From a virus: 43,991 bases of DNA. The stretch lies in IMG/VR virus record IMGVR_UViG_3300025543_000057, positions 1 through 43,991 of that record; one strand, written 5' to 3'. A model generated the notes under the pieces. It was not told the origin of the DNA and did not search any database. It saw nothing but the letters and a program-made list of their open reading frames with translations. Both the position numbers and the translations under genes were made by a program. Shown here one piece after another: positions 14,222 to 40,963 of this stretch (position 1 is its first letter; every line of letters begins with the position of its first letter).

Positions 14222-17200
14222 ATGAACGCCATGAACGCGATTGACGACCAACTGCCCCCCGGTTTTGTTCTCGACAACGCTCCGGTCGCGCCCCCCGTTG
14301 TGCCCCCCGTTGTGCCCGCCGTGGCGACCAGCGTCCCCCCTTCGGTAGCGACCAAGGCACCCCCGGACCTGCCGGAGGGCTTTGTGCTGGACACGCCGGA
14401 CATGCCTGACGACGGACCCGGATTTTGGGAAGCCGCAGGCAACGCGCTGGTGCGCGGTAAGAACAACTATCTCGACCAACCCCTCAACGTCGGCGGCTAT
14501 CTGACGGGGGCGCTGTCCCCGACCGATGCAGCGACCGCGATCATTCAGGATTACACCGAAGCGCAGGCCGCGCCCATGACGACGGACGGCGCTCGGGCGA
14601 TGGAGAACTTGGACAAGAACGGGGTCTGGAACACACTCAAAGACGACTTCCCCGGCGTTGCCAGCGCCACGGGCCAGACCGCGCTTGAAGCGGCGGCTGG
14701 TCTGCCGGGGATGTTCGCAGCGGCTGGCGTCGGCGCGGCAGCGGGCACGGCGGCCACGTTGAACCCCGCAGGAACCGTCATAGGTGGAGCCCTCGGGGCC
14801 GGATCGGTCTCGGGTGCGACGGAATTTGCCTCGATCATTGTGGAGGCCCTGACCAATACGGGCGTCCCCGTGACACAGGAGAACGTCACCAAGCTGTTGT
14901 CGGACCCGGAGTTCATGTCCGCCGCCAAGAGCGAGGCGCTGCGCGGCGGGGCTATCGTCGGGGGCTTTGACGCGCTCACCGCCGGGATGGCCGGGCGCAT
15001 CTTCGGACCTGTCCGCAGGGTCGTCGCGCCACACACCGGCAAGATCGGCTCGGGCGTTGTAGGGGCCGGAGCGGAAGTCGCGGTGCAATCGGCAGGCGGT
15101 GCCGGAGGCGAGGCCGCCAAGCAGTTGGCGAACGACGGCGGGATCAGCAGCCCCGGCAGCGTATTCATGGAAGCCGCCGCAGAGATACCGGGGTCTGCCA
15201 TTGAAATCCCCGGCACAGTCAAGGCGATCAGAACAGGCGAGGGGCTTGTCAAGCCCCAGCCCGCGCCAGACCCAGCACTCGCCCCGGACCTGCCGGAAGG
15301 TTTCGTCCTCGACCCGCCGCAGGGGCAGACTGAACAAGTCGCGCCTCCGACTGAACAAGTCGTTCCCGAACCACAGGTCCAGCCACAGGTCCAGCCCGAT
15401 CCACAGGTCCAGCCCGATCCACAGGTCCAGCCCGAAGCACAGGTCCAGCCACAGGTCCAGCCACAGGTCCAGCCCGATCCGCAGGTCCAGCCCGATCCAC
15501 AGGCCCCCGTCCAGCGCGGATACCCGACAGGGAAATCTGAAAAGGTCGTGACCCCCGATGGCTCGTTCGAGTTTGACACAGACTTTGAGGTCGTCGAGCT
15601 AGATGCTCTTATCTCGGCCACCGGGGACTTGCAGCCTCGGGACCGGGGGGACAGAACGCAGTCGGACACGCAAATATCCGACAACGCCAGAAAACTCGAC
15701 CCGGCCCGGCTTCTGTCCTCGCGCGAAAGTGACCGAGGCTCACCAATCATTGACGAAACGAACACGATCCTGTCCGGCAATGGGCGGGCCGCGTCTATCT
15801 TGGAGGCGATGAGGCTTCACCCGGACAGATACGCGGCCTACCTCAAGCGTTTGAAGGACGAAGGCTACCTCACCGATGGGATGAAAGCCCCGGTCCTTGT
15901 CCGCCGGGCGGCTGCCCTGTCCCCTGACCAAAAGGTGCTGCTCGCCCGCCGCTCGGCAGCGGCAGCGGACCAGACGCTTTCGCCGTCGGAGCGGGCCAAT
16001 CTGGAAAAGAACTACATCACCGAAGACATGCTCAAGGAGTTCAACTCGGACGTGACCGAAGGGGTCGGCGCGGCGGCAAACGCCCCATTCTTCCGCACCT
16101 TCATGAGAAGTGTTCCACAGGCCGAGCAAAACGCCCTGCTTGGCGCAGCCAACGAACTGACCCCTGCCGGGGTCCAGCGTGTCACGGCGGCGCTGTTTAG
16201 TCGGGCCTACGACAACAAGAACCTGATCCGCCGGGCTGTCGAGCAGGGCGTGGACAAGCAGATCACCAATGGCCTGACCGCCGCCGCACCGGCTTGGGCC
16301 CGGATGCGCGACGCACTCAAACGCGCGGGCAAAGAAAAGCAATTCGATATGACGCAGGTGCTTGTCGAGGCGCTGGAACTCATCAACGAAGCGGGCACCA
16401 AGGGGATGAACTTCGCCAACTTCATGAAGCAACTGGACGCCTTCCGGACGATAGACCCGAAGGCAGCCGCAGCGGCCCGGTTGTTCCTGAACGAGCAGCA
16501 GACCCGGCTCGCCAGCGCGGACACGATCCGGGACAGGCTCCAGAGGTACGCGGCGAGAGCTGAGGGGCTGACCAAAGCCGAAGACGACATTTTCGGCGGC
16601 GGTCCTGCGGACGCCACGGCCATCGTAGCCGAAATCGTAGCCGGGCTGGACAGCACGGCGAAGGGTCAACCCGTGGACCCCGGCGACACACCCACGCCTG
16701 CGACCACAACCAAACCGGAAGCAGAACCTAAGCTTGCGGGCAGAACCGAAGTGGAGGCCGAACCCCCGAGGGATAGGGTCTTCGGTCCGCGCCTGACCAC
16801 CGCGAAGAACCCGTTCCCCGGATACGCCGGGCCGGTGACGCTGGCGACGGACGCGAAGGGCCGGAGGCTCTACTTCTGGCGCAACGAAGGGAGCGGCGGG
16901 GCCGCTGGGGCAGGCGAATACGGCATGACCTTGCTGACCCCGGACGACAAAGAAGTCTCGGTCGAGGCCGGGTTGCGAGGAGAAATGACCGGGGAGTATA
17001 GCCTGATCGCTACGGAAGTGGCCTTCTTGGCTGGCGAACTGGACAGCCTGATCGACGATCTTTGGGCCTCCGCCAAAACGAAGACCAAAACGCAGACCAA
17101 ACCGGAGACCAAAGCGCAGCCCGGTTCCGAACTTTTCCCCGGCTCCGAAGTCACGTCCACCGGGCCGATGCAGGGGCGGAAAGCCGCCAAGGGCCAAGCG

Positions 17201-20200
17201 CCCGCCAGCGGCGCACTTCTGGACGCCCCGGACACGGGTCCGCAGACCCGTGTACCGCGTGGCGCAATGTCCCCGAAGACTTCCGAAGTCTCTTTCACCA
17301 ACCGGGCGGCGATCTACGAAGACGCCTTCCGCGTCGCCGGGATCGACCCGGACCGGGGGCAACTCCTGCCGCCGGAGCGCAAGCTGAGAGTGTTGGCGGA
17401 CGTGCTGGAAAAGGTCTTCGGCTTCAAGGTCAACATCAAGACGGACCTGTCCGTCCCGGACGCCGTGAACCAGATGCTCGACGCCTACCGCAACATCCGC
17501 TTCATGATGCACGCGCTGGCGCTGCCGGTGCAGGCCATCAGCTTGCAGGGAAGGCTCACGCTGTCGCTCGAACGCTTCAAGGGGCAATACCTTGGCATGT
17601 ACTCGCTCGCGGACCACACGATCCACATGCCGGGCCGCTCAAATTCGTTCGCCCATGAGTGGATGCACGCGCTGGATCATTACCTCGGAGACACCCTCAC
17701 TCCGAAGTTTAAGGACTTGCTGTCCCGCATCACGCGTAGCGAAGGTCTGGACCCGTCGGACAACCTGCAATCTGCCTTCATCAACCTGATCCATAAACTG
17801 TTCTTCGACGAAGCGGCCCTCGCCGTGCAGATGCTCAGGCTGGAAACCGAAGCCAACGCCACGATCAAGAAAGGCCCGAAAGCCGGACAGCCGACGCAGG
17901 CCGCGCTCGCGGCGCAGAAGTCCCTCGAACGGCTGGCCGCCGGGGCGACCCGGATACGGGTTCAGCCGTCCGCCTACCGGCAGGACGCAGCCAAATACGA
18001 CCCGAGCAGTGACTATTTCCCCTCGGTCCACGAGATGATCGCCCGCGCCTTCGAGGCGTACACCGCCTTTAAGGTGGAGACTGCCGGGGGGTCCAACGAG
18101 TTCATCACCAAGGGCGATCAGAACTATCTGTCCGACGCGGACCGCCGCCTGCAAATGACGTTCCCGAAAAGCCACGAACGGCTGGCGATTTTCTCGGCGT
18201 TCGACGACGTGTTCCACCACATCCGGACCCAAGCGATCCTCGGCGTCGGCCCGGCGGAGCCCCTGCCGGTGGATCAAGACATAACGGACCCGTCCAAGTG
18301 GACCAAGATCGCCGCATTCCGCGACGGGCAGGGCGTTGTCGCGGCCCTTAAAGAAGAAGCCTTCAAGCTGCGCAACGCGCTCCGGGTGCTTCGGCTCCAA
18401 CCCCTGAAACAGACCCTGAAAGCGTCCGCGTCGGAGGTCGCCATCAACGCGGGCATCGGCGCAACGGCCACCTCGCCCAAGTCCATGAAGCAGGGGATCA
18501 CGGACGTGTGGGACGCAATGGCGAAGATCGTCCGGTCCGGGCGCGGCATTGCGAAGATGATCGTCCTCCGCCAGCCGGAGAAGTCTCAGCCGTTCTTGCA
18601 GTGGATCGTCAACCGTCTGACCACCGACCCCGGCACCGGCCGGGAGGATCAGGTCGCTACGTGGGAGGAAGCCGCCGGGAACCAGACCAACATCGACACC
18701 ACGGAACTGCAAGCCGCGCTTGTCTCCAACGGCATGTCCGGGCGGATCAAGAAAGACGCCAGCATGAGATTGCGCAAGCTCATGCTCGGGCAGACCGTTC
18801 CGGGAGCCTCCACCGCTGAAATCGCCGTGGCGGCCCTACTGCGCCGGTTGATGGACAAGGCTTGGCAGGCGGCGTCCGCAGCGGGGGTCGGCATCGGCTA
18901 TGTCCGCAACACCGGATACCTGCCGCGCGTCATTCTGCGGGAAGAAGTCCAGAACCGGCTGCAAGAGTTCACCGCCGCCGCGAAGCAGGTCTACCTGAAA
19001 CAGTTCGACCACATCACCGACGGGATCAACGCGGCGGACCTGTTGGCTTTCGCCAAGGGCGTCATGTCCGAATTTGAGCCAGCCGTCGCCAAGGTGACGA
19101 AGACCGGGAAGCTCGCCCCGCCGTACCAAAACCTCCGCGCGGCGATCCGGGTGCTGGACAACGCAACGGCGCTCCACGACGCCAACCCCACGGCGCAGAC
19201 CCGCGCAGACAAGGCGCAGGCCAAAGCCGCCGTGGACGCCGCCATAGCCCGGCTCTTGGCCGCGCTCCGCGACCCGTTCGCCACCACGTCGGCGAAAGCG
19301 TGGGGCCACCGCATTCTGGCCGGGGACAGCTTCTCATATGATAGCCACGGCCCCAACACGAACTTCGCGAAGACCCGGACCTTGGTCCCGGAGGCGGACG
19401 ACATTTTGGGCGACGCCGGGTTCTACGACACGGACACGGTGCATGGGGCTGTGACATATCTGCACCAAGTCAACAAGCGGACCTCCTATCAGGAGCGTTT
19501 CGGCATGTCCTCGGGTCCGAAGTTCCTCTCGGACATATTGCGCCGGGAAGACATTCAGGATGCGATGCAGCAGAACCCCCGCAAGTACGACCCGGACACG
19601 TCCGCCGGGGCGTTCAACATCATCCGCGACCTCGCCAACCCGCAGGTGGACGACATAAAGGAAATGATGGTCAATGAGGCCGTCAAGTGGGGCGCGAACG
19701 GCGGCGATGCGCAATACCTGCGCGGCCTCGTCGAGAAGATAACCGGGCGCTCCGGCGGCGATCCGCTGATCAAACCCTATGAAGCCCTCTCGTCCACGAT
19801 TGCCATCTACACTTTCATCGCGCTACTGCCGCGCGCGACGCTGACCGCCATAACCGAACCCATCGCCACCATGATGCGGACCGGATCGGTGAAGGCTTCC
19901 GTCCAGACCCTCGGCATGTATGTGATGGAGGCGGTGCGGAGTGCGAAGTCCACGCAAGAAAGGCAGGCTTTGGCCGAAGCCATCGGGGTCGTGTCCACGG
20001 CGCTGCATGACACGGTTCTGCTCAACCGCCTGTCCGGCGACCACGGCAACGTCGTGTCCGGCAACGTCGTCATGACGCAGTTCTTCCGGGCCATCGGCTT
20101 GACCCAACTGACGAACGCGCAGCGCCGGGCGGCTATGGCCGGAGGCTTCTACTGGCTGCGCGACCTCGCCAAGCAATACGCGACAACCGATAATGTCAAA

Positions 20201-21079
20201 AAGAAGATCATCGAAGCGGAGTTCCGCGACCTCGGGGTCCAGCCGGAGCAGTTCGACGCCGTGGTGGATTGGCTGGGGCAGTCGGACAGCCTGCCGACGC
20301 CGGAGGATATGCGGTCCAGCACCGGGAAGGTGATGGCCCTCGCGCTGGCCCGGTTCACGGACCAGACGATCCAGAACCCCCGGCGGATGGACAAGGCCCT
20401 GTCGGCCACAAGCCCCATCGGGCGGCTGACCTTCGGTCTCATGTCGTTCTTCTACACGTTCTTCCGCAACGTCCACCAAGCGACCTATTTGCGAGCCAAA
20501 CGCAACTACGGGATTGCCAAGGGGGAGGGCGAAAGCACGACGACGGCGGCCATGCAGGCTGTCGCCCCGGCTCTCGCCACTCTCGGCGGCGGCTTCGCCA
20601 TGATGTTCGCCGGGCAGTTCCTCATCTCAATGCTGCGCGAAGCGATCTACAACCCGGAGCAGTGGGAGAAACACGAAAAAGACGACGACCTGTCGGATTG
20701 GCTGATCAAGCTCGCTTGGTCCCGGACCGGCATATATGGCCCAGCGGACCCGCTCATCAACGCCATGACCGGCTTGCGCTACGAGCGCGACGTGGTGAAC
20801 CTCGCCGCAGGGCCGGGCTTCTCTTACCTCATGTCCAACGTCCAGAATATCTTGAAGCTGTGGACGCGCAACTCGCCGAACACGAACACCGCAGAACACA
20901 CCGCTGCCAAGTCCGCCTATCGGATGGCCTTCGCCCCGGCGGCGGCTTGGGCCTTGTCGGCGATCCCCGTCGGTGGGCCGGTTGCTTGGGCCGCTCGCTA
21001 CGGAGCAATCGGTCTGGCGACTTCCAACGCGGCGTCCACCAAGGCGGCCGACGTGGTTGCTGGCCCCAAGAAAAAGTGA
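14222..21079 (+). CDS. Giant polyvalent ejected protein (2285 aa) with ParB-like and LPD1-like metallopeptidase regions
   Basis: The N-terminus has L-P-x-G-F-V-L-D units (at about 11, 46 and 358), a Gly/Ala-rich membrane-active-looking segment (about 150-205) and a P-Q-V-Q-P repeat linker (about 384-428). Residues ~455-700 resemble the DarB/DdrB-type ParB domain of polyvalent proteins (E-L-D-A-L-I, Q-P-R-D-R, D-x-G-x-P-I-I and I-L-S-G-N-G-R-A). Residues ~1020-1290 resemble the LPD1 domain, with the zinc-peptidase-like H-E-W-M-H-A-L-D-H at 1145-1153. The C-terminal third is long helices with hydrophobic patches, similar in outline to LPD38-type tails. Polyvalent proteins are thought to enter the host with the DNA and counter host functions (Iyer and colleagues). 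It ends the late structural run. The roles are inferred; domain limits are approximate. Confidence 0.85.
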   Translation: MNAMNAIDDQLPPGFVLDNAPVAPPVVPPVVPAVATSVPPSVATKAPPDLPEGFVLDTPDMPDDGPGFWEAAGNALVRGKNNYLDQPLNVGGYLTGALSPTDAATAIIQDYTEAQAAPMTTDGARAMENLDKNGVWNTLKDDFPGVASATGQTALEAAAGLPGMFAAAGVGAAAGTAATLNPAGTVIGGALGAGSVSGATEFASIIVEALTNTGVPVTQENVTKLLSDPEFMSAAKSEALRGGAIVGGFDALTAGMAGRIFGPVRRVVAPHTGKIGSGVVGAGAEVAVQSAGGAGGEAAKQLANDGGISSPGSVFMEAAAEIPGSAIEIPGTVKAIRTGEGLVKPQPAPDPALAPDLPEGFVLDPPQGQTEQVAPPTEQVVPEPQVQPQVQPDPQVQPDPQVQPEAQVQPQVQPQVQPDPQVQPDPQAPVQRGYPTGKSEKVVTPDGSFEFDTDFEVVELDALISATGDLQPRDRGDRTQSDTQISDNARKLDPARLLSSRESDRGSPIIDETNTILSGNGRAASILEAMRLHPDRYAAYLKRLKDEGYLTDGMKAPVLVRRAAALSPDQKVLLARRSAAAADQTLSPSERANLEKNYITEDMLKEFNSDVTEGVGAAANAPFFRTFMRSVPQAEQNALLGAANELTPAGVQRVTAALFSRAYDNKNLIRRAVEQGVDKQITNGLTAAAPAWARMRDALKRAGKEKQFDMTQVLVEALELINEAGTKGMNFANFMKQLDAFRTIDPKAAAAARLFLNEQQTRLASADTIRDRLQRYAARAEGLTKAEDDIFGGGPADATAIVAEIVAGLDSTAKGQPVDPGDTPTPATTTKPEAEPKLAGRTEVEAEPPRDRVFGPRLTTAKNPFPGYAGPVTLATDAKGRRLYFWRNEGSGGAAGAGEYGMTLLTPDDKEVSVEAGLRGEMTGEYSLIATEVAFLAGELDSLIDDLWASAKTKTKTQTKPETKAQPGSELFPGSEVTSTGPMQGRKAAKGQAPASGALLDAPDTGPQTRVPRGAMSPKTSEVSFTNRAAIYEDAFRVAGIDPDRGQLLPPERKLRVLADVLEKVFGFKVNIKTDLSVPDAVNQMLDAYRNIRFMMHALALPVQAISLQGRLTLSLERFKGQYLGMYSLADHTIHMPGRSNSFAHEWMHALDHYLGDTLTPKFKDLLSRITRSEGLDPSDNLQSAFINLIHKLFFDEAALAVQMLRLETEANATIKKGPKAGQPTQAALAAQKSLERLAAGATRIRVQPSAYRQDAAKYDPSSDYFPSVHEMIARAFEAYTAFKVETAGGSNEFITKGDQNYLSDADRRLQMTFPKSHERLAIFSAFDDVFHHIRTQAILGVGPAEPLPVDQDITDPSKWTKIAAFRDGQGVVAALKEEAFKLRNALRVLRLQPLKQTLKASASEVAINAGIGATATSPKSMKQGITDVWDAMAKIVRSGRGIAKMIVLRQPEKSQPFLQWIVNRLTTDPGTGREDQVATWEEAAGNQTNIDTTELQAALVSNGMSGRIKKDASMRLRKLMLGQTVPGASTAEIAVAALLRRLMDKAWQAASAAGVGIGYVRNTGYLPRVILREEVQNRLQEFTAAAKQVYLKQFDHITDGINAADLLAFAKGVMSEFEPAVAKVTKTGKLAPPYQNLRAAIRVLDNATALHDANPTAQTRADKAQAKAAVDAAIARLLAALRDPFATTSAKAWGHRILAGDSFSYDSHGPNTNFAKTRTLVPEADDILGDAGFYDTDTVHGAVTYLHQVNKRTSYQERFGMSSGPKFLSDILRREDIQDAMQQNPRKYDPDTSAGAFNIIRDLANPQVDDIKEMMVNEAVKWGANGGDAQYLRGLVEKITGRSGGDPLIKPYEALSSTIAIYTFIALLPRATLTAITEPIATMMRTGSVKASVQTLGMYVMEAVRSAKSTQERQALAEAIGVVSTALHDTVLLNRLSGDHGNVVSGNVVMTQFFRAIGLTQLTNAQRRAAMAGGFYWLRDLAKQYATTDNVKKKIIEAEFRDLGVQPEQFDAVVDWLGQSDSLPTPEDMRSSTGKVMALALARFTDQTIQNPRRMDKALSATSPIGRLTFGLMSFFYTFFRNVHQATYLRAKRNYGIAKGEGESTTTAAMQAVAPALATLGGGFAMMFAGQFLISMLREAIYNPEQWEKHEKDDDLSDWLIKLAWSRTGIYGPADPLINAMTGLRYERDVVNLAAGPGFSYLMSNVQNILKLWTRNSPNTNTAEHTAAKSAYRMAFAPAAAWALSAIPVGGPVAWAARYGAIGLATSNAASTKAADVVAGPKKK
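15372..15505 (+). repeat. Tandem Pro-Gln-Val-Gln-Pro coding repeat
   Basis: About ten short units built on CAGGTCCAGCC, in two spacings (12 and 18 bp), encode the flexible linker between the N-terminal part and the ParB-like region of the giant protein. Copy number probably varies by slippage or recombination. Confidence 0.9.
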
Positions 21080-22049: not shown

Positions 22050-22631
22050 TCACTTCCCCTCAACGGCCACGTCGTAGCCATACTTTTGCAGCCGGAGGAG
22101 CCAAGCCCGCGCCGCGTGTTGCGGGAACCAGCCGGGACGCACGATAGGGGTCCGCTCGATTTCTTCCAGACCATCGGGCCACGGGTCTCCCCGGACCAGC
22201 AAGGCGTCCCGCTCGCTCATGAGCATAACCGCGTCCGCGCGCTTGACCCATGTCTTTGTTTCGTCGTCCCACGGGTATGGCAGCTTGGCGCGGGCGAAGA
22301 TCGCCGCGTCGTGGGTGGCTTTCAGGTCACGGATCATGTCCGCGCCAAGGACGTTCGCCAGCGGTGTAGGTATGTCCCCAATCACAAACTCGTGGGCGTC
22401 GTGCAGAAGTCCGACCAGCCGGACAGACCTCGGGACGGGCTGGGTGATCAGCCAATCGTGGACCCGGCAACAATGCTCGGCAACTGAGTAGAACATCTGA
22501 GTATGCCCGCCGAAGCGGCATATGTGGGCAAGGGCGTGGGCCACGTCGGCCCACTCCACGTTCTCTGCGGCGGGGTTGGTGTACTCCCACCGGCCCCCGG
22601 AGGCGGTCTGGCTCCATGTCATTGTGGTCAT
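22050..22631 (-). CDS. HD-domain nucleotide phosphohydrolase (YfbR/DatZ-like)
   Basis: The 193-residue protein has the HD metal site: His53 (A-E-H), His77-Asp78, then Glu81 and Asp86 in H-D-A-H-E-x(4)-D-I-P-T-P, and a later A-D-A-V acidic residue near 137. This matches YfbR-type 5'-deoxynucleotidases (H-D-A-S-E-x(4)-D-L-P-T-P in E. coli YfbR), a family that also includes phage DatZ dATPases. It probably hydrolyses deoxynucleotides to tune the pool for replication. I chose the ATG at 22631 with AGGAG and AGGA upstream, as earlier in-frame codons have no support. It shares an operon with the DNA polymerase and a dATP/dGTP hydrolase-like gene. The substrate is not decided by sequence. Confidence 0.85.
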   Translation of the reverse strand: MTTMTWSQTASGGRWEYTNPAAENVEWADVAHALAHICRFGGHTQMFYSVAEHCCRVHDWLITQPVPRSVRLVGLLHDAHEFVIGDIPTPLANVLGADMIRDLKATHDAAIFARAKLPYPWDDETKTWVKRADAVMLMSERDALLVRGDPWPDGLEEIERTPIVRPGWFPQHAARAWLLRLQKYGYDVAVEGK

Positions 22632-22657: not shown

Positions 22658-22903
22658 CTAGCGGCCCTGCGCAGCTCCGACGCCGCGCCCGCGAAGGCCC
22701 TCCCAAGCCCGGCGGACTTGGTTCTCGAACATGCGCAAGGTGTCCCTAGAGGACGGCGACACGCTGGTGGTGAGGGTGCGCTTTTCGGGGCCGCGCCGAA
22801 TAGTGATTTTCATGTGCCCGCTTTTGGCGACGGCCATCGAATAGTTGGACGTGTAGCGTTCTATGACTTGGACGTATTCGCGATTGGTCTTGGACTGTCC
22901 CAT
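22658..22903 (-). CDS. Hypothetical basic protein, 81 aa
   Basis: No family is recognised. The N-terminal half has an amphipathic helix (N-R-E-Y-V-Q-V-I-E-R-Y), the middle a beta pair (K-I-T-I-R-R and R-T-L-T-T-S), and the C-terminal half a basic helix (R-M-F-E-N-Q-V-R-R-A-W). It has high Arg/Lys content and may bind nucleic acid. It lies 5 nt after the GGQ-domain gene and 26 nt before the HD gene in the same leftward operon. The ATG has a GAAGGGA-type site upstream. Real by operon packing and composition. Confidence 0.65.
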   Translation of the reverse strand: MGQSKTNREYVQVIERYTSNYSMAVAKSGHMKITIRRGPEKRTLTTSVSPSSRDTLRMFENQVRRAWEGLRGRGVGAAQGR

Positions 22904-22908
22904 GTCCG

Positions 22909-23115
22909 TTATCCCTTCGGGTGTATGAGCGCCGTCAGGATCATGTCCAAGGCGACCTCTCGGTTGGCGTGTTGCGACCGGGCAAGCATCGAGACCGCTT
23001 CGGTCCCGGTCGGCAGGTGCGTAGCCTTGACCCCCACGGGGGTGAAACCGACCTGCTGGCCGCCTCGGGGTCGCGGCGGATACGCTTCGATCTTCAGGTC
23101 TGCGGGGTCAATCAT
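22909..23115 (-). CDS. Stand-alone release-factor (GGQ) domain, 68 aa
   Basis: The short protein has the core of the class I release-factor peptidyl-tRNA hydrolysis domain: R-G-G-Q-Q-V (GGQ at 18-20), then V-x-A-T-H-L-P-T-G (29-37) and R-S-Q-H-A-N-R-E-V-A-L-D-M (46-58), matching the conserved T-H-x-P-T-G and R-S-Q-x-x-N-x-x-x-A motifs in order and spacing. It lacks the codon-recognition domain of RF1/RF2 and the basic C-terminal tail of ArfB. In ribosomes, GGQ places water for ester hydrolysis. It may release nascent chains from stalled ribosomes or act on free peptidyl-tRNA. The ATG has AAGGAG 8 nt upstream and overlaps the upstream membrane-peptide stop (ATGATTGA). Confidence 0.85.
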   Translation of the reverse strand: MIDPADLKIEAYPPRPRGGQQVGFTPVGVKATHLPTGTEAVSMLARSQHANREVALDMILTALIHPKG

Positions 23116-23236
23116 AGCGGCGGCTCCTTTTGGGTGGGTCTTTGATTGTTCTGCCCCGGCGCGGGTACTGGAGAAGCGCGAAGGCGAGGGCAAGGACGCC
23201 GACGAAGCCGATGAGGGCTGCTGCGAAGCAAGACAT
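23108..23236 (-). CDS. Small membrane protein (42 aa), coupled to the GGQ gene
   Basis: A 42-codon frame starts at ATG with CAGGAG 9 nt upstream. The product is a short N-terminus, one hydrophobic segment of about 20 residues (Ala, Leu, Val, Phe) and a very basic tail with R-R-G-R and K-R-S-R-R. Its stop overlaps the ATG of the GGQ-domain gene, so translation is probably coupled. Topology (N-out, basic tail inside) follows the positive-inside rule. The pairing with a release-factor domain could place the latter near the membrane, but that is inference only. Confidence 0.6.
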   Translation of the reverse strand: MSCFAAALIGFVGVLALAFALLQYPRRGRTIKDPPKRSRRYD

Positions 23237-23329: not shown

Positions 23330-25327
23330 CTATTTTTTGTAACGCTGGCCGACCCAGCCTTCGGCCTCGACAGGTAGCCCTGCGGCCCATGTGGGTGGGC
23401 TTCGCATGATCGCCAACAGGCGGGCGAGCGTGCCGTCAGCGTTGCCTTCGTCCGGCTCCGTCAACAGTTCGTCGTGGACCGTCAGGATCAGCGGAATGCC
23501 CTCGGCGTCCGCCGTGAGCATGGCGTCGCGCATCACGTCGCGGGCGACGGCCTGCGTCACGTTCTCGGCCAGCTTGCCGCCGTAGGTCCGCAGCGGCTCC
23601 CAGCGGCGCGTGTACTGGTTGGTTCCCCTGTAAGTGATCGAGGTCCGCCCCGGCATGTCCGGGTCCATCTCCAGCGTGGCGTTGCGGTAGACCAAGTGGC
23701 GTCCCGAAGGGAGCCGGATAACCAGATGCTTTCCCCACATGCCGACGCGGACGAAGCCCACATCGACATGGGTCTGAGGGTTTTCGAGAACGGTCCGTGC
23801 TGCGCTGTCCAAGTCCCACCAGAACCGGACAATCGCGTTGTTCGCCCGCCGCCACTCGGTGACGGCTTCCTCTGCTTCCGGGAGGGTCATTTCCACGCCG
23901 GACTTGGCGGCGGTCTCGATAAACTTGTCTTTGCCCATGCCGAACCCGAGGCCCAGCACCATGACTTTGCCGCGCTGGCGCAACGGACTGTCCTTGGGGA
24001 TCGTCTTCCAATCTATCCCTTTGACGCGACCGATGGTGTAGCGGTACACGTCCGCGCCGGACGCGAACACGTCCAGAATGTCTTGCTGCCCGGCCAGCCA
24101 AGCAATGACGCGGGCTTCGATCTGCGCGAAGTCGGCGACCGCGAGCGTGTGTCCGGGCCGGGCCACGATGCAGGCGCGCAGCAGGGTGGAGACAATACCC
24201 ATAGCGGGACCAAACAGGGCTTCGAGCATGTCGTAGGGCATACCAGCCTCCACCATGCGGGCCGCGCCGTCCACATCCTTGAAGTCGCCGCGTGGCATGT
24301 TTTGCAGTTGAATGAGCCGTCCGGCCCATCGCCCGGTCCGGTTGGCTCCGTAATATTGAAGCATCCCGCGCACGTCCCCGACCCCTTGAGCAGCCGTGCA
24401 AGCGGCCCACATAGCCTTGAGTTTGGCCGCGCTGGTCCGGGCAACGTCCGCGCGGATCGTGAGGATTTTGCGCTCCATGCCTATGCAGTCCGGGTGTTCC
24501 ATCCGCTCGGCAATGGTGTCCTTGCGCAGATCGTCGTGAGGATAGCCGAAGGCTTGAAGCTCTTTCAGCATCGCCGCTGTGGAGTGAACGCCCCGGACAC
24601 GCCTGCCGGTAAGCGCGTTCAGGCGCTGACTGCTCCAATGGGTCGCTTCTTCGGCGAGAACACTCAGCTTTTCCACGAAACCCAAGTCCACGCCGACGCC
24701 CTTCGCGTTCATCCGCTGGTCCAGCATCCACGTCTGCCGCTCGATTTCCGGCAGCGGCGGGAGGGTTTTGGCGATGGCCCGTTCGACTTCCACGTCCACG
24801 TCGCAATATTCCATGAGCCTTTCCAGCCGGGCAGGTTCATCTTCGTGCCACCACGTCGTGATACCCCGGCGAGGGTCGTGCTTGCGCGGTTTGCACATCC
24901 GCATCATGAGGGCGTGGCCCTCCTTGTCTTTCTTGATGGCGACGCCCGCCGCCGGGCCCGCCATGTCCAGCGACAAGGGCAGCCCCCAATAGGCGGCGCG
25001 GGCCATCGTGTCCGAGACTTGGGCCAGTGCCAGACTGTCCATTTGGGGGTCCAGACCAAGCTGACGGATCAGCGTCTTGTTCCAGATGCACAACTCGAAG
25101 GCCACGTTCCAGCCTTGGACCGTGCGCCCCCGGCGGACGTGATCGAGGACTTCGTGCGGGAACGGGTCGCCGATCTTCCAGCGGCAGACCGGATCATCGT
25201 CGAAGGCGAACGACATACATATGACGCGGGTACTGTGATGTTCCGCGTAGGTGTAGGCCCCCGTCCGGCGCAGGTCCGCGAGACTGATAGTCTCGAAGTC
25301 AATCGAGAGGATGGCGTCGGTGGTCAT
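23330..25327 (-). CDS. Family A DNA polymerase with 3'-5' exonuclease
   Basis: The 665-residue enzyme replicates the phage genome. The N-terminus shows the exonuclease Exo I motif S-I-D-F-E-T (Asp10, Glu12). The polymerase domain shows motif A A-D-F-A-Q-I-E-A-R (about 395-403), motif B region G-K-V-M-V-L-G-L-G-F-G-M-G (about 455-467) and motif C V-H-D-E (about 615-618), the catalytic aspartates being in motifs A and C. Phages of this type encode such an enzyme without the 5' nuclease domain of bacterial Pol I. The ATG overlaps the stop of the dATP/dGTP hydrolase-like gene. Neighbours are helicase, nuclease, SSB-like and nucleotide-pool genes, so this is the replication operon. Confidence 0.96.
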   Translation of the reverse strand: MTTDAILSIDFETISLADLRRTGAYTYAEHHSTRVICMSFAFDDDPVCRWKIGDPFPHEVLDHVRRGRTVQGWNVAFELCIWNKTLIRQLGLDPQMDSLALAQVSDTMARAAYWGLPLSLDMAGPAAGVAIKKDKEGHALMMRMCKPRKHDPRRGITTWWHEDEPARLERLMEYCDVDVEVERAIAKTLPPLPEIERQTWMLDQRMNAKGVGVDLGFVEKLSVLAEEATHWSSQRLNALTGRRVRGVHSTAAMLKELQAFGYPHDDLRKDTIAERMEHPDCIGMERKILTIRADVARTSAAKLKAMWAACTAAQGVGDVRGMLQYYGANRTGRWAGRLIQLQNMPRGDFKDVDGAARMVEAGMPYDMLEALFGPAMGIVSTLLRACIVARPGHTLAVADFAQIEARVIAWLAGQQDILDVFASGADVYRYTIGRVKGIDWKTIPKDSPLRQRGKVMVLGLGFGMGKDKFIETAAKSGVEMTLPEAEEAVTEWRRANNAIVRFWWDLDSAARTVLENPQTHVDVGFVRVGMWGKHLVIRLPSGRHLVYRNATLEMDPDMPGRTSITYRGTNQYTRRWEPLRTYGGKLAENVTQAVARDVMRDAMLTADAEGIPLILTVHDELLTEPDEGNADGTLARLLAIMRSPPTWAAGLPVEAEGWVGQRYKK

Positions 25328-39004: not shown

Positions 39005-40963
39005 ATGACCAACACACCATCAACCCACAGCCCCAGCCTTTACGATTTTTCTGGCCGGGTGGTTTACTCGGACTTCGTGTCCGCTGCTGAAAAGACAATG
39101 CGCGCTATTTTGGCGCGCACTCAAAGCGGACGTTACCACCTCAAGATCACGCCCACGGGCGGAGAAAGCGCCTACGTGTCCACGTCCGGCGCTCAGACGT
39201 TCGATGTGGGCCTCCCCTCGATCCCAATGGACACTGTGATCACCGCAGAATATGCCCGGCGATTGCTGGCGTTCTTGATCCACGAGCTATGCCACGTTCT
39301 CGCCACCGACCTCGGCTTGTTGGGGGATTTCCACCGCCGCACGTTTCCCCTCGGCGTTACGACCCAGCTTGCCGCCGAGCTACTCAACCAAGTGGAGGAT
39401 TATTATATAGAGCGGGTCGCCTCGGACCCGCGCGGCCCGGTCGTCCAAAACGCGCCCGCGCTGCTTGGCTATCTTAACGACGTAGTCCAACAGCCCGGCG
39501 GTGCGCTGGCGGCGATACAAGCCACCCCGGCGGCCCGGCACGATCCCTTCCGGGAGGCGCAATGGCTGCTTTGCGCGCTGATCAATCGCCACGGCTGCCA
39601 GATTACGCCCGCGCTGGACCAGTACGCAGCCGACACGCAACAGGCGGCCACGCCCGCAGTCATGGTCGCAGTTCGGGAGGCGCTGACCGCGCTGGACATC
39701 TGCGCGGACAAGCTCGGACCGATTACTCCACGCGATCAGCACCGCGCCCAATCAGTTGACCGGCACAACATCACCTTTCGACTTATTGAGGCTCTCGCAA
39801 AAGCCAACAAGCCCAAGGACAAGGACAAGCCCAAGGACAACAACAAGCCCAAGGACAACAACAAGCCCAAGGACAACAACAAGCCCAAGGACGAGGACAA
39901 AGGCAAAGGCAAACCCGGCGAAGGCGACAAGCCCCGCGAAGGCCAACCCGGCGAAGGCCAACCCGGTGAAGGCGACAAACCCGGCGAAGGCGCAGGTTTA
40001 GCCGGACCCAGCCCACAGGCGAAGCAGACCGCGCTGGCCGCCGTCGCGCCAAACCTGACGCGACAACAGCGCGCGCAGGGCGCATCTACTACGATGGGGT
40101 CCGCGACACTTGCGGACCCGGCGAATGTCGCAAGTTTCCGGCGCAAAACATGGATAACGACCGAGAACAACGGCGAAGCCTACGCAGAGACGACCCGGCG
40201 GGTCGCCGCCGCTGTGGACGCCCGTGCGACAGCCGACGCATTTCGGCGCGGTCTGCAATCCGTCGAAAAAATCGTCACGCAACGGCGTTTGCAGTCTGGC
40301 AGGCTGGACCGTCGCGGACTGATGCGCGCTGCGACCGGCGCAAAAGATGTGTTTTCCCGCAGTACCATCACGCCCGGCGTGGACACGGCCGTTCTAGTCA
40401 TGGTCGATGCGTCGGGGTCGATGGGTAACGTAGAGATACTTCGCACGCCCGATGGGGAGATGTACGCTTCGCGCTGGCAAGCCGTTATTGGTGTTCTGGC
40501 GGTGATCCTGCCAGCACTTGACCGCGCACGGGCGCAAACCGCAGCGTTTGGCTGGACCGGCGGCATCCCTCGGCGCTCGGACGACGAAAGGGCGACTATC
40601 TTTCCGCTCAAGCCGTGGCACCAGCGCCCGCGCACTGTGGACCTGCTTGATGCTCTAGGACGGCAGCGCGGCCACGGCGGGACACCGATGGCCAAAGAAG
40701 TGCGATGGGCTCAGGAGGATATCAAGTCCCGCCGCGCCGACCGGCGCGTGGTTCTTTGGTTGCATGACGGCACCCCGAACGACGGCGACGGCACACGGGA
40801 GGCTCTAAGGATCGCGCGCGCGCAAGGCGTCGAACATTATGGCATAGGGATTGCTACATCTGCCCGCAAGACGTTCGGCTGGCGCTATTCGGCGGACGTG
40901 GATGACCTTGGGAAACTGCCAAAGGTGCTGGAGACCATCCTCCTGCAAGGTGTCCGTACATGA
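39005..40963 (+). CDS. CobT-like VWA protein with HExxH site and repeat linker
   Basis: The 652-residue protein begins with a metallopeptidase-like region: H-E-L-C-H (93-97) and N-Q-V-E-D-Y-Y-I-E-R about 30 residues later, where CobT-like proteins have a conserved Asn/Glu. A linker of Lys-Pro-Lys-Asp units and Gly-Glu-Gly units (about 268-335) leads to a C-terminal von Willebrand A domain whose MIDAS is D-A-S-G-S (468-472), with a later G-G-T-P and H-D-G-T-P. It should be the partner of the MoxR-type ATPase 23 nt upstream. Whether the HExxH motif is catalytic is unproven. The ATG has AAGGAACC upstream, and its stop overlaps the start of a 40-residue membrane protein. Confidence 0.88.
   Translation: MTNTPSTHSPSLYDFSGRVVYSDFVSAAEKTMRAILARTQSGRYHLKITPTGGESAYVSTSGAQTFDVGLPSIPMDTVITAEYARRLLAFLIHELCHVLATDLGLLGDFHRRTFPLGVTTQLAAELLNQVEDYYIERVASDPRGPVVQNAPALLGYLNDVVQQPGGALAAIQATPAARHDPFREAQWLLCALINRHGCQITPALDQYAADTQQAATPAVMVAVREALTALDICADKLGPITPRDQHRAQSVDRHNITFRLIEALAKANKPKDKDKPKDNNKPKDNNKPKDNNKPKDEDKGKGKPGEGDKPREGQPGEGQPGEGDKPGEGAGLAGPSPQAKQTALAAVAPNLTRQQRAQGASTTMGSATLADPANVASFRRKTWITTENNGEAYAETTRRVAAAVDARATADAFRRGLQSVEKIVTQRRLQSGRLDRRGLMRAATGAKDVFSRSTITPGVDTAVLVMVDASGSMGNVEILRTPDGEMYASRWQAVIGVLAVILPALDRARAQTAAFGWTGGIPRRSDDERATIFPLKPWHQRPRTVDLLDALGRQRGHGGTPMAKEVRWAQEDIKSRRADRRVVLWLHDGTPNDGDGTREALRIARAQGVEHYGIGIATSARKTFGWRYSADVDDLGKLPKVLETILLQGVRT
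39809..39996 (+). repeat. Lys-Pro-Lys-Asp and Gly-Glu-Gly coding repeats
   Basis: Several exact AAGCCCAAGGACAAC units followed by GGCGAAGGC-type units encode the charged linker between metallopeptidase-like and VWA regions. Exact DNA copies point to recent expansion. Confidence 0.85.

Follow-up and report, generated by a model that had tools for sequence, protein, structure and literature searches.

A stand-alone RF-1 domain encoded by a temperate tailed phage and its phage relatives

The locus and its surroundings

The window, by which we mean the whole stretch of 43,991 nucleotides analyzed here (IMG/VR record IMGVR_UViG_3300025543_000057), belongs to a temperate tailed phage; the record is linear, and genes for terminase, capsid, integrase, repressor, primase, helicase, exonuclease, and single-strand-binding proteins were identified in it. 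On the minus strand, at 22909-23115, lies a gene with an ATG start, a TAA stop, and a GGAG-type ribosome-binding site preceding the ATG, whose 68-residue product (MIDPADLKIEAYPPRPRGGQQVGFTPVGVKATHLPTGTEAVSMLARSQHANREVALDMILTALIHPKG) is assigned by Pfam, PHROG, fold, and codon-position GC as a stand-alone RF-1 domain with a GGQ tripeptide. The GGQ codons (residues 18-20; 23056-23064, minus strand) align with the invariant GGQ of release factors, and the RSQHAN loop (residues 46-51; 22963-22980, minus strand) is conserved in 88 bacterial release factors and 33 phage proteins. The RSQ-region loop and the GGQ loop together form the catalytic site of RF-1 domains (PMC3950681). GC content by codon position (0.68/0.46/0.78) is typical of the phage, the neighboring DNA polymerase gene having 0.65/0.46/0.80. 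With chance far exceeded, 22909-23115 is a real gene, and the coordinates and the 68-residue frame with GGQ, THLPTG, and RSQHxN given in an earlier note on this DNA are correct by translation and alignment.

The GGQ gene shares its strand with the replication genes. Upstream of it a family A DNA polymerase is encoded at 23330-25327 (minus strand; Pfam 1.1e-19, PHROG 17 4e-95). Downstream are a gene for an 81-residue protein (22658-22903, minus strand), which matches PHROG 2089 at 0.003 only, and a gene for an HD-type deoxynucleoside 5'-monophosphate phosphatase (22050-22625, minus strand; PHROG 318, 2e-46). Of annotated phages, the closest to this one are Microcystis phage Mae-Yong1326-1, by terminase and polymerase, and Rhizobium phage RHph_N65, by terminase. 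Mae-Yong1326-1 has the replication gene order of the window, with other small genes at the position of the GGQ gene; a search of IMG/VR with the DNA polymerase of the window found no close relatives of the phage. Among the approximately 25 window genes scanned there were no RNA-repair genes, RtcB included, and no tRNA gene was found either. Stop-codon recoding was rejected as the purpose of a phage release factor here, since the standard code gives uninterrupted genes and a codon-reading part is missing from the protein. Elsewhere in the window, a gene for a 2285-residue protein (14222-21079, plus strand) resembles in position the giant 'peptidoglycan transglycosylase' gene of Mae-Yong1326-1, and a 652-residue protein (39005-40963, plus strand) has a CobT-like match (PHROG 17276, 1.4e-6).

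Immediately upstream, at 23108-23236 on the minus strand, is an open reading frame for a 42-residue single-span membrane-like protein (hydropathy 2.65), which has an AGGAG site. The last 8 nt of this frame coincide with the first 8 nt of the GGQ gene; the earlier note had observed the overlap. Family-profile and phage searches returned neither a family match nor a phage homolog for this protein, so that its status as a gene is argued from its ribosome-binding site, position, and hydropathy only.

Identity of the domain

Profile searches of the kind proposed in the earlier note matched the 68-residue protein to the RF-1 family in Pfam, PHROG, and NCBIfam. Pfam PF00472 (RF-1) was matched at 1.7e-10 (41.3 bits, the gathering score being 35) and PHROG 35727 at 1.4e-11, while residues 1-58 aligned at 1e-8 to positions 1-57 of the 73 in PHROG 20323, 'RF-1 domain peptide chain release factor'. 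The NCBIfam models of RF1, RF2, and PrfH also matched (1e-11 to 1e-8), the alignment being confined to the catalytic domain and, for RF1/RF2, to model positions ~211-286, and a sequence search of the PDB recovered RF1/RF2 chains at about 3e-8. In an AlphaFold model built with 22 phage sequences (pLDDT 85.4), the strands and helix are predicted to be arranged as in RF domain 3, with strands 28-33 and 39-42 joined directly by the THLPTG turn. The best Foldseek match of this model was the catalytic domain of ribosome-bound RF2 (2.8e-5; TM 0.77 over the query), all 33 PDB matches at E<=0.001 were release factors, ribosome-bound or alone, and the fold matches also included RF1, PrfH, and C12orf65 (the last at E 0.035). 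The structural match to a GGQ domain on which the earlier claim depended was found, for this predicted fold, in domain 3 of RF1/RF2. The protein is a stand-alone RF-1 domain, corresponding in its modeled fold to RF domain 3.

Release factors bring domain 3 to the peptidyl-transferase center by stop-codon reading. The window protein has in common with domain 3 of RF1/RF2 the fold, GGQ, THxPTG, and RSQHxN (31-43% identity in fold alignments), but domains 1, 2, and 4 are missing and R13, G16, N23, and R30 of the release-factor consensus are replaced. Like ArfB/YaeJ and ICT1, it is a stand-alone GGQ domain and codon-independent by construction; unlike ArfB/YaeJ, it has no alpha-i insertion, linker, or basic C-terminal tail, so that the lack of a codon-reading domain and of an ArfB-type tail described in the earlier note was borne out, with the ArfB insertion missing as well. 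The protein contains seven lysines and arginines and six aspartates and glutamates, and terminates in HPKG, four residues past the last helix (48-64). In ArfB the tail sits in the mRNA channel, bringing the GGQ domain to the peptidyl-transferase center, and ArfB loses activity when the tail is cut or mutated (PMC3950681). C12orf65 (mtRF-R) is likewise a GGQ domain without codon-reading parts, and with MTRES1 it acts on split mitochondrial large subunits carrying peptidyl-tRNA (PMC8786322). It differs in having extra extensions and in MTRES1 as its known partner, whereas no partner of the window protein was found or is recognizable. PrfH, which uses an RF-1 domain against ribosome damage and is a fold match, has an N-terminal domain and RtcB as its partner; the window locus has neither.

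The phage family and the loss of GGQ

Relatives of the 68-residue protein were found by tblastn in many phage records. A single-sequence scan of IMG/VR gave no match, and the further IMG/VR loci came from alignment-based scans. Single-domain members of about 64-77 residues occur in diverse phages, other members carry C-terminal additions, and the domain limits are similar in unrelated phages. The closest relatives (L044, L014, L045/L047, L013, and L051) are 31-57% identical to the window protein and all have GGQ; identity is 57% for L044, 50% for L014, 48% for L045/L047, and 40% for the protein of Pseudomonas phage Boevelstad, which has GGQ as well. The stand-alone proteins of tailed phages in PHROG 20323 / 3122 resemble the window protein in length, domain content, sequence, and fold, although the GGQ of the window protein is replaced by QGH in Acinetobacter phage Ac42 (64 residues) and deleted in Agrobacterium phage OLIVR5 (65 residues). 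The viral structure library BFVD holds a further 72-residue protein (A0A6J5NIJ4), named 'peptide chain release factor class I/class II'. The stand-alone RF-1 domain is thus already annotated in phage databases and the window gene is not unique, which makes the finding less novel than the earlier note presented it. No function papers on such proteins were found in the open-access literature, where there are at most genome-table mentions, and the main text of a broad survey of release-factor evolution contains no instance of the word 'phage' (PMC6514570).

When genome contigs were scanned with an alignment of the window's sub-group, the best 80 matches were full-length or contig-truncated RF1/RF2, a result that does not address rare chromosomal copies. 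The degenerate DNA pattern for RPxGGQ[QH]VG had one match in 385 genomes of one bacterial class, which was not release-factor-like, and in IMG/VR it found already known loci only. Wastewater 'Listeria/Staphylococcus/Enterococcus phage' records matched by tblastn were set aside, those examined being contigs with full RF1/RF2 genes. OR845006, OR846643, OR848728, and similar 'phage' records hold full-length bacterial RF1/RF2 and look like bacterial contigs; the neighbors in OR845006 resemble rho, tdk, and prmC.

Comparison of 33 phage proteins with 88 bacterial release-factor domains revealed uneven conservation of the catalytic site. His33, Asn51, Gly37, and the RSQ of RSQxxN are kept in 91-100% of the phage members, while GGQ is present in 15/33, replaced by GGM, GGF, or GGW in 10/33, and broken in its Gly-Gly pair in 8/33. 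All seven members of the window's own sub-group have GGQ. Residues invariant in the 88 bacterial proteins are altered in the phage group at R13, G16, N23 (to G), and R30, and the GGQ-bearing phage proteins have lost the invariant arginine and glycine before the motif and read GGQxxG where bacterial release factors read GGQxxN (99%). Release is abolished when either glycine is changed, and the glutamine packs into the active site through its side chain (PMC5799190). Because both glycines are needed, the eight members without the pair should be inactive, and hydrolysis would not be the function of every member; the GGM, GGF, and GGW members, to judge from their sequence, could be active. Loci that have lost the pair and kept RSQxxN or a near form include L016, L017, and L019 (5995-6609), L038 (1001-1195), L005 (2498-2695), L039 (14-508), and L046 (6001-6198), and comprise both stand-alone and fused RF-1 domains.

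In close pairs, with and without GGQ, dN/dS is 0.07-0.16, some dS values exceeding 1 and the genes being short; the pair L008/L037, misaligned by one codon, was left out. For members without GGQ the values are 0.07 (L016/L019) and 0.115 (L002/L021). By these sequence comparisons the relatives are under purifying selection, and together with the GGQ of all the closest relatives this indicates that the domain is maintained. The tree of the phage proteins is weakly resolved and requires several separate changes for the loss of GGQ; a single origin is not fixed by it, because it covers only 71 columns.

In Otagovirus-type phages a fusion joins the RF-1 domain to an L7/L12 C-terminal-like domain (PF00542, best 6.5e-7), which is above the Pfam cut-off in four of the six fusions (L002, 1501-1893; L024; L029; L031; L036; L037). 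These are mostly GGM proteins, with GGQ in L031. Phage phiPsa381 likewise has a GGM member with the stalk-like domain. The L7/L12 C-terminal domain is the part of the ribosomal stalk in contact with translation factors. The fusion ties the phage family to the ribosome and is the strongest hint, at the level of sequence, that its members may act there; no published description of a release-factor/stalk-domain fusion was found in the open-access literature. A different architecture is seen in Pseudomonas phage SM1 (L011, 2063-2872), where a degenerate RF-1 domain (E 0.0025) without GGQ is accompanied by a possible weak GNAT-acetyltransferase match (E 0.04). Defense-related context across the family is mixed. 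In Mycobacterium phage prophi86-1 (L041, 968-1306) a longer GGQ-bearing gene lies within a tRNA cluster, and after it come two genes for small membrane proteins and one for an RtcB-like RNA ligase, an arrangement like that of PrfH and RtcB. In L026 (5022-5786), and also in L028 and L032, a PhoH gene is found one small open reading frame upstream of the GGQ gene (3.4e-48 in L026).

Possible functions at the ribosome

The reading that we favor, and to which we give about an even chance, is that the window protein hydrolyzes peptidyl-tRNA independently of codons, as a minimal RF domain 3 acting at the peptidyl-transferase center of the large subunit. Made together with the replication genes, the domain would dock, alone or with a partner, at the A-site side of this center in the host large subunit and would hydrolyze peptidyl-tRNA without reading a codon. 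For a protein without the usual anchors the likeliest substrates would be peptidyl-tRNA on split 50S subunits or ribosomes stalled during infection, and the bare domain might reach the center by being abundant, with the help of a partner, or on a substrate whose site is free. What we infer is that it binds ribosomes and hydrolyzes peptidyl-tRNA, together with its substrate, its timing, and its advantage to the phage; rescue of ribosomes stalled by host defense is a plausible candidate role. Retention of GGQ together with the PTG turn and RSQxxN counts for hydrolysis, and the changes at the release-factor-invariant R13, G16, N23, and R30 count against it, as does the dependence of ArfB on its tail, since the binding of a bare domain may be too weak for activity.

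The main rival, possible and on balance doubtful, is a non-catalytic plug of the A site and peptidyl-transferase center that would slow, protect, or redirect translation on idle or host ribosomes, the GGQ being incidental. Such a plug would account for a family that keeps His33, Asn51, Gly37, and RSQxxN while GGQ persists in fewer than half of its members (15/33) and the Gly-Gly pair is broken in 8/33, and for purifying selection on members without GGQ (0.07; 0.115); inactive release-factor domains of the bacterial baeRF-1 group, proposed as A-site plugs, offer a precedent (PMC6514570). A pure plug, however, has no need of the GGQ found in 7/7 of the window's sub-group, and the GGM, GGF, and GGW members, keeping both glycines, may still be active.

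Improbably, the protein could instead act as a decoy, diverting the glutamine methyltransferase PrmC of the host, or could compete with RF1/RF2, so that normal termination would become less efficient during infection. PrmC recognizes the mimicked release-factor domain, the fold matches include the RF1-PrmC complex 2b3t, and GGM-type members would be non-methylatable pseudo-substrates; most members, however, are without the release-factor-invariant residues flanking the motif, so that PrmC recognition may weaken, and the phage needs efficient termination for its own proteins.

Quite unlikely is a two-gene unit in which the release factor is recruited to the inner membrane by the 42-residue membrane protein, for instance to act on translocon-stalled ribosomes or on lysis timing. 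Beyond the 8-nt overlap in the window, a small membrane-like gene lies directly upstream in L045/L047, L051, and Ac42, but the encoded proteins are mutually unrelated, none of the four upstream membrane proteins matches a PHROG family, and no such gene is present in L014, L044, L013, L015, L018, L023, L026, L031, L005, L046, L016, or L043. The resulting frequency, about 4/17 lineages (binomial P about 0.15), is unremarkable given that 12% of small genes at these loci are of this kind; 3/6 in the window's sub-group (P about 0.03) is suggestive and post hoc. Of the mini release factor coupled to a tiny membrane protein that the earlier note had proposed, the first part is upheld by the sequence and the fold and by the purifying selection on its phage family, whereas the coupling is true of the window locus and is not conserved.

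Least probable of all is that a release-factor gene was captured and that what is left of it has no function: of the four domains just one is present, but the frame is intact, with a ribosome-binding site and phage-typical codon usage, the domain limits recur in unrelated phages, and dN/dS in relatives is well below 1.

Extending the hydrolase reading to the family gives a picture that we offer tentatively, in which a domain-only, codon-blind release factor clears peptidyl-tRNA from large subunits or defense-jammed ribosomes, and several lineages may have turned it into a ribosome-binding translation regulator by loss of GGQ or by L7/L12-like fusion. If true, the window protein would rank with the smallest GGQ peptidyl-hydrolases in nature and would reveal what portion of a release factor is required for catalysis at the ribosome, and it would provide an easily expressed reagent for studying how phages keep ribosomes usable when mRNA or tRNA is cleaved by the host. 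The loss of GGQ and retention of RSQxxN across the family constitute a natural experiment that bears on which element of the domain is the important one.
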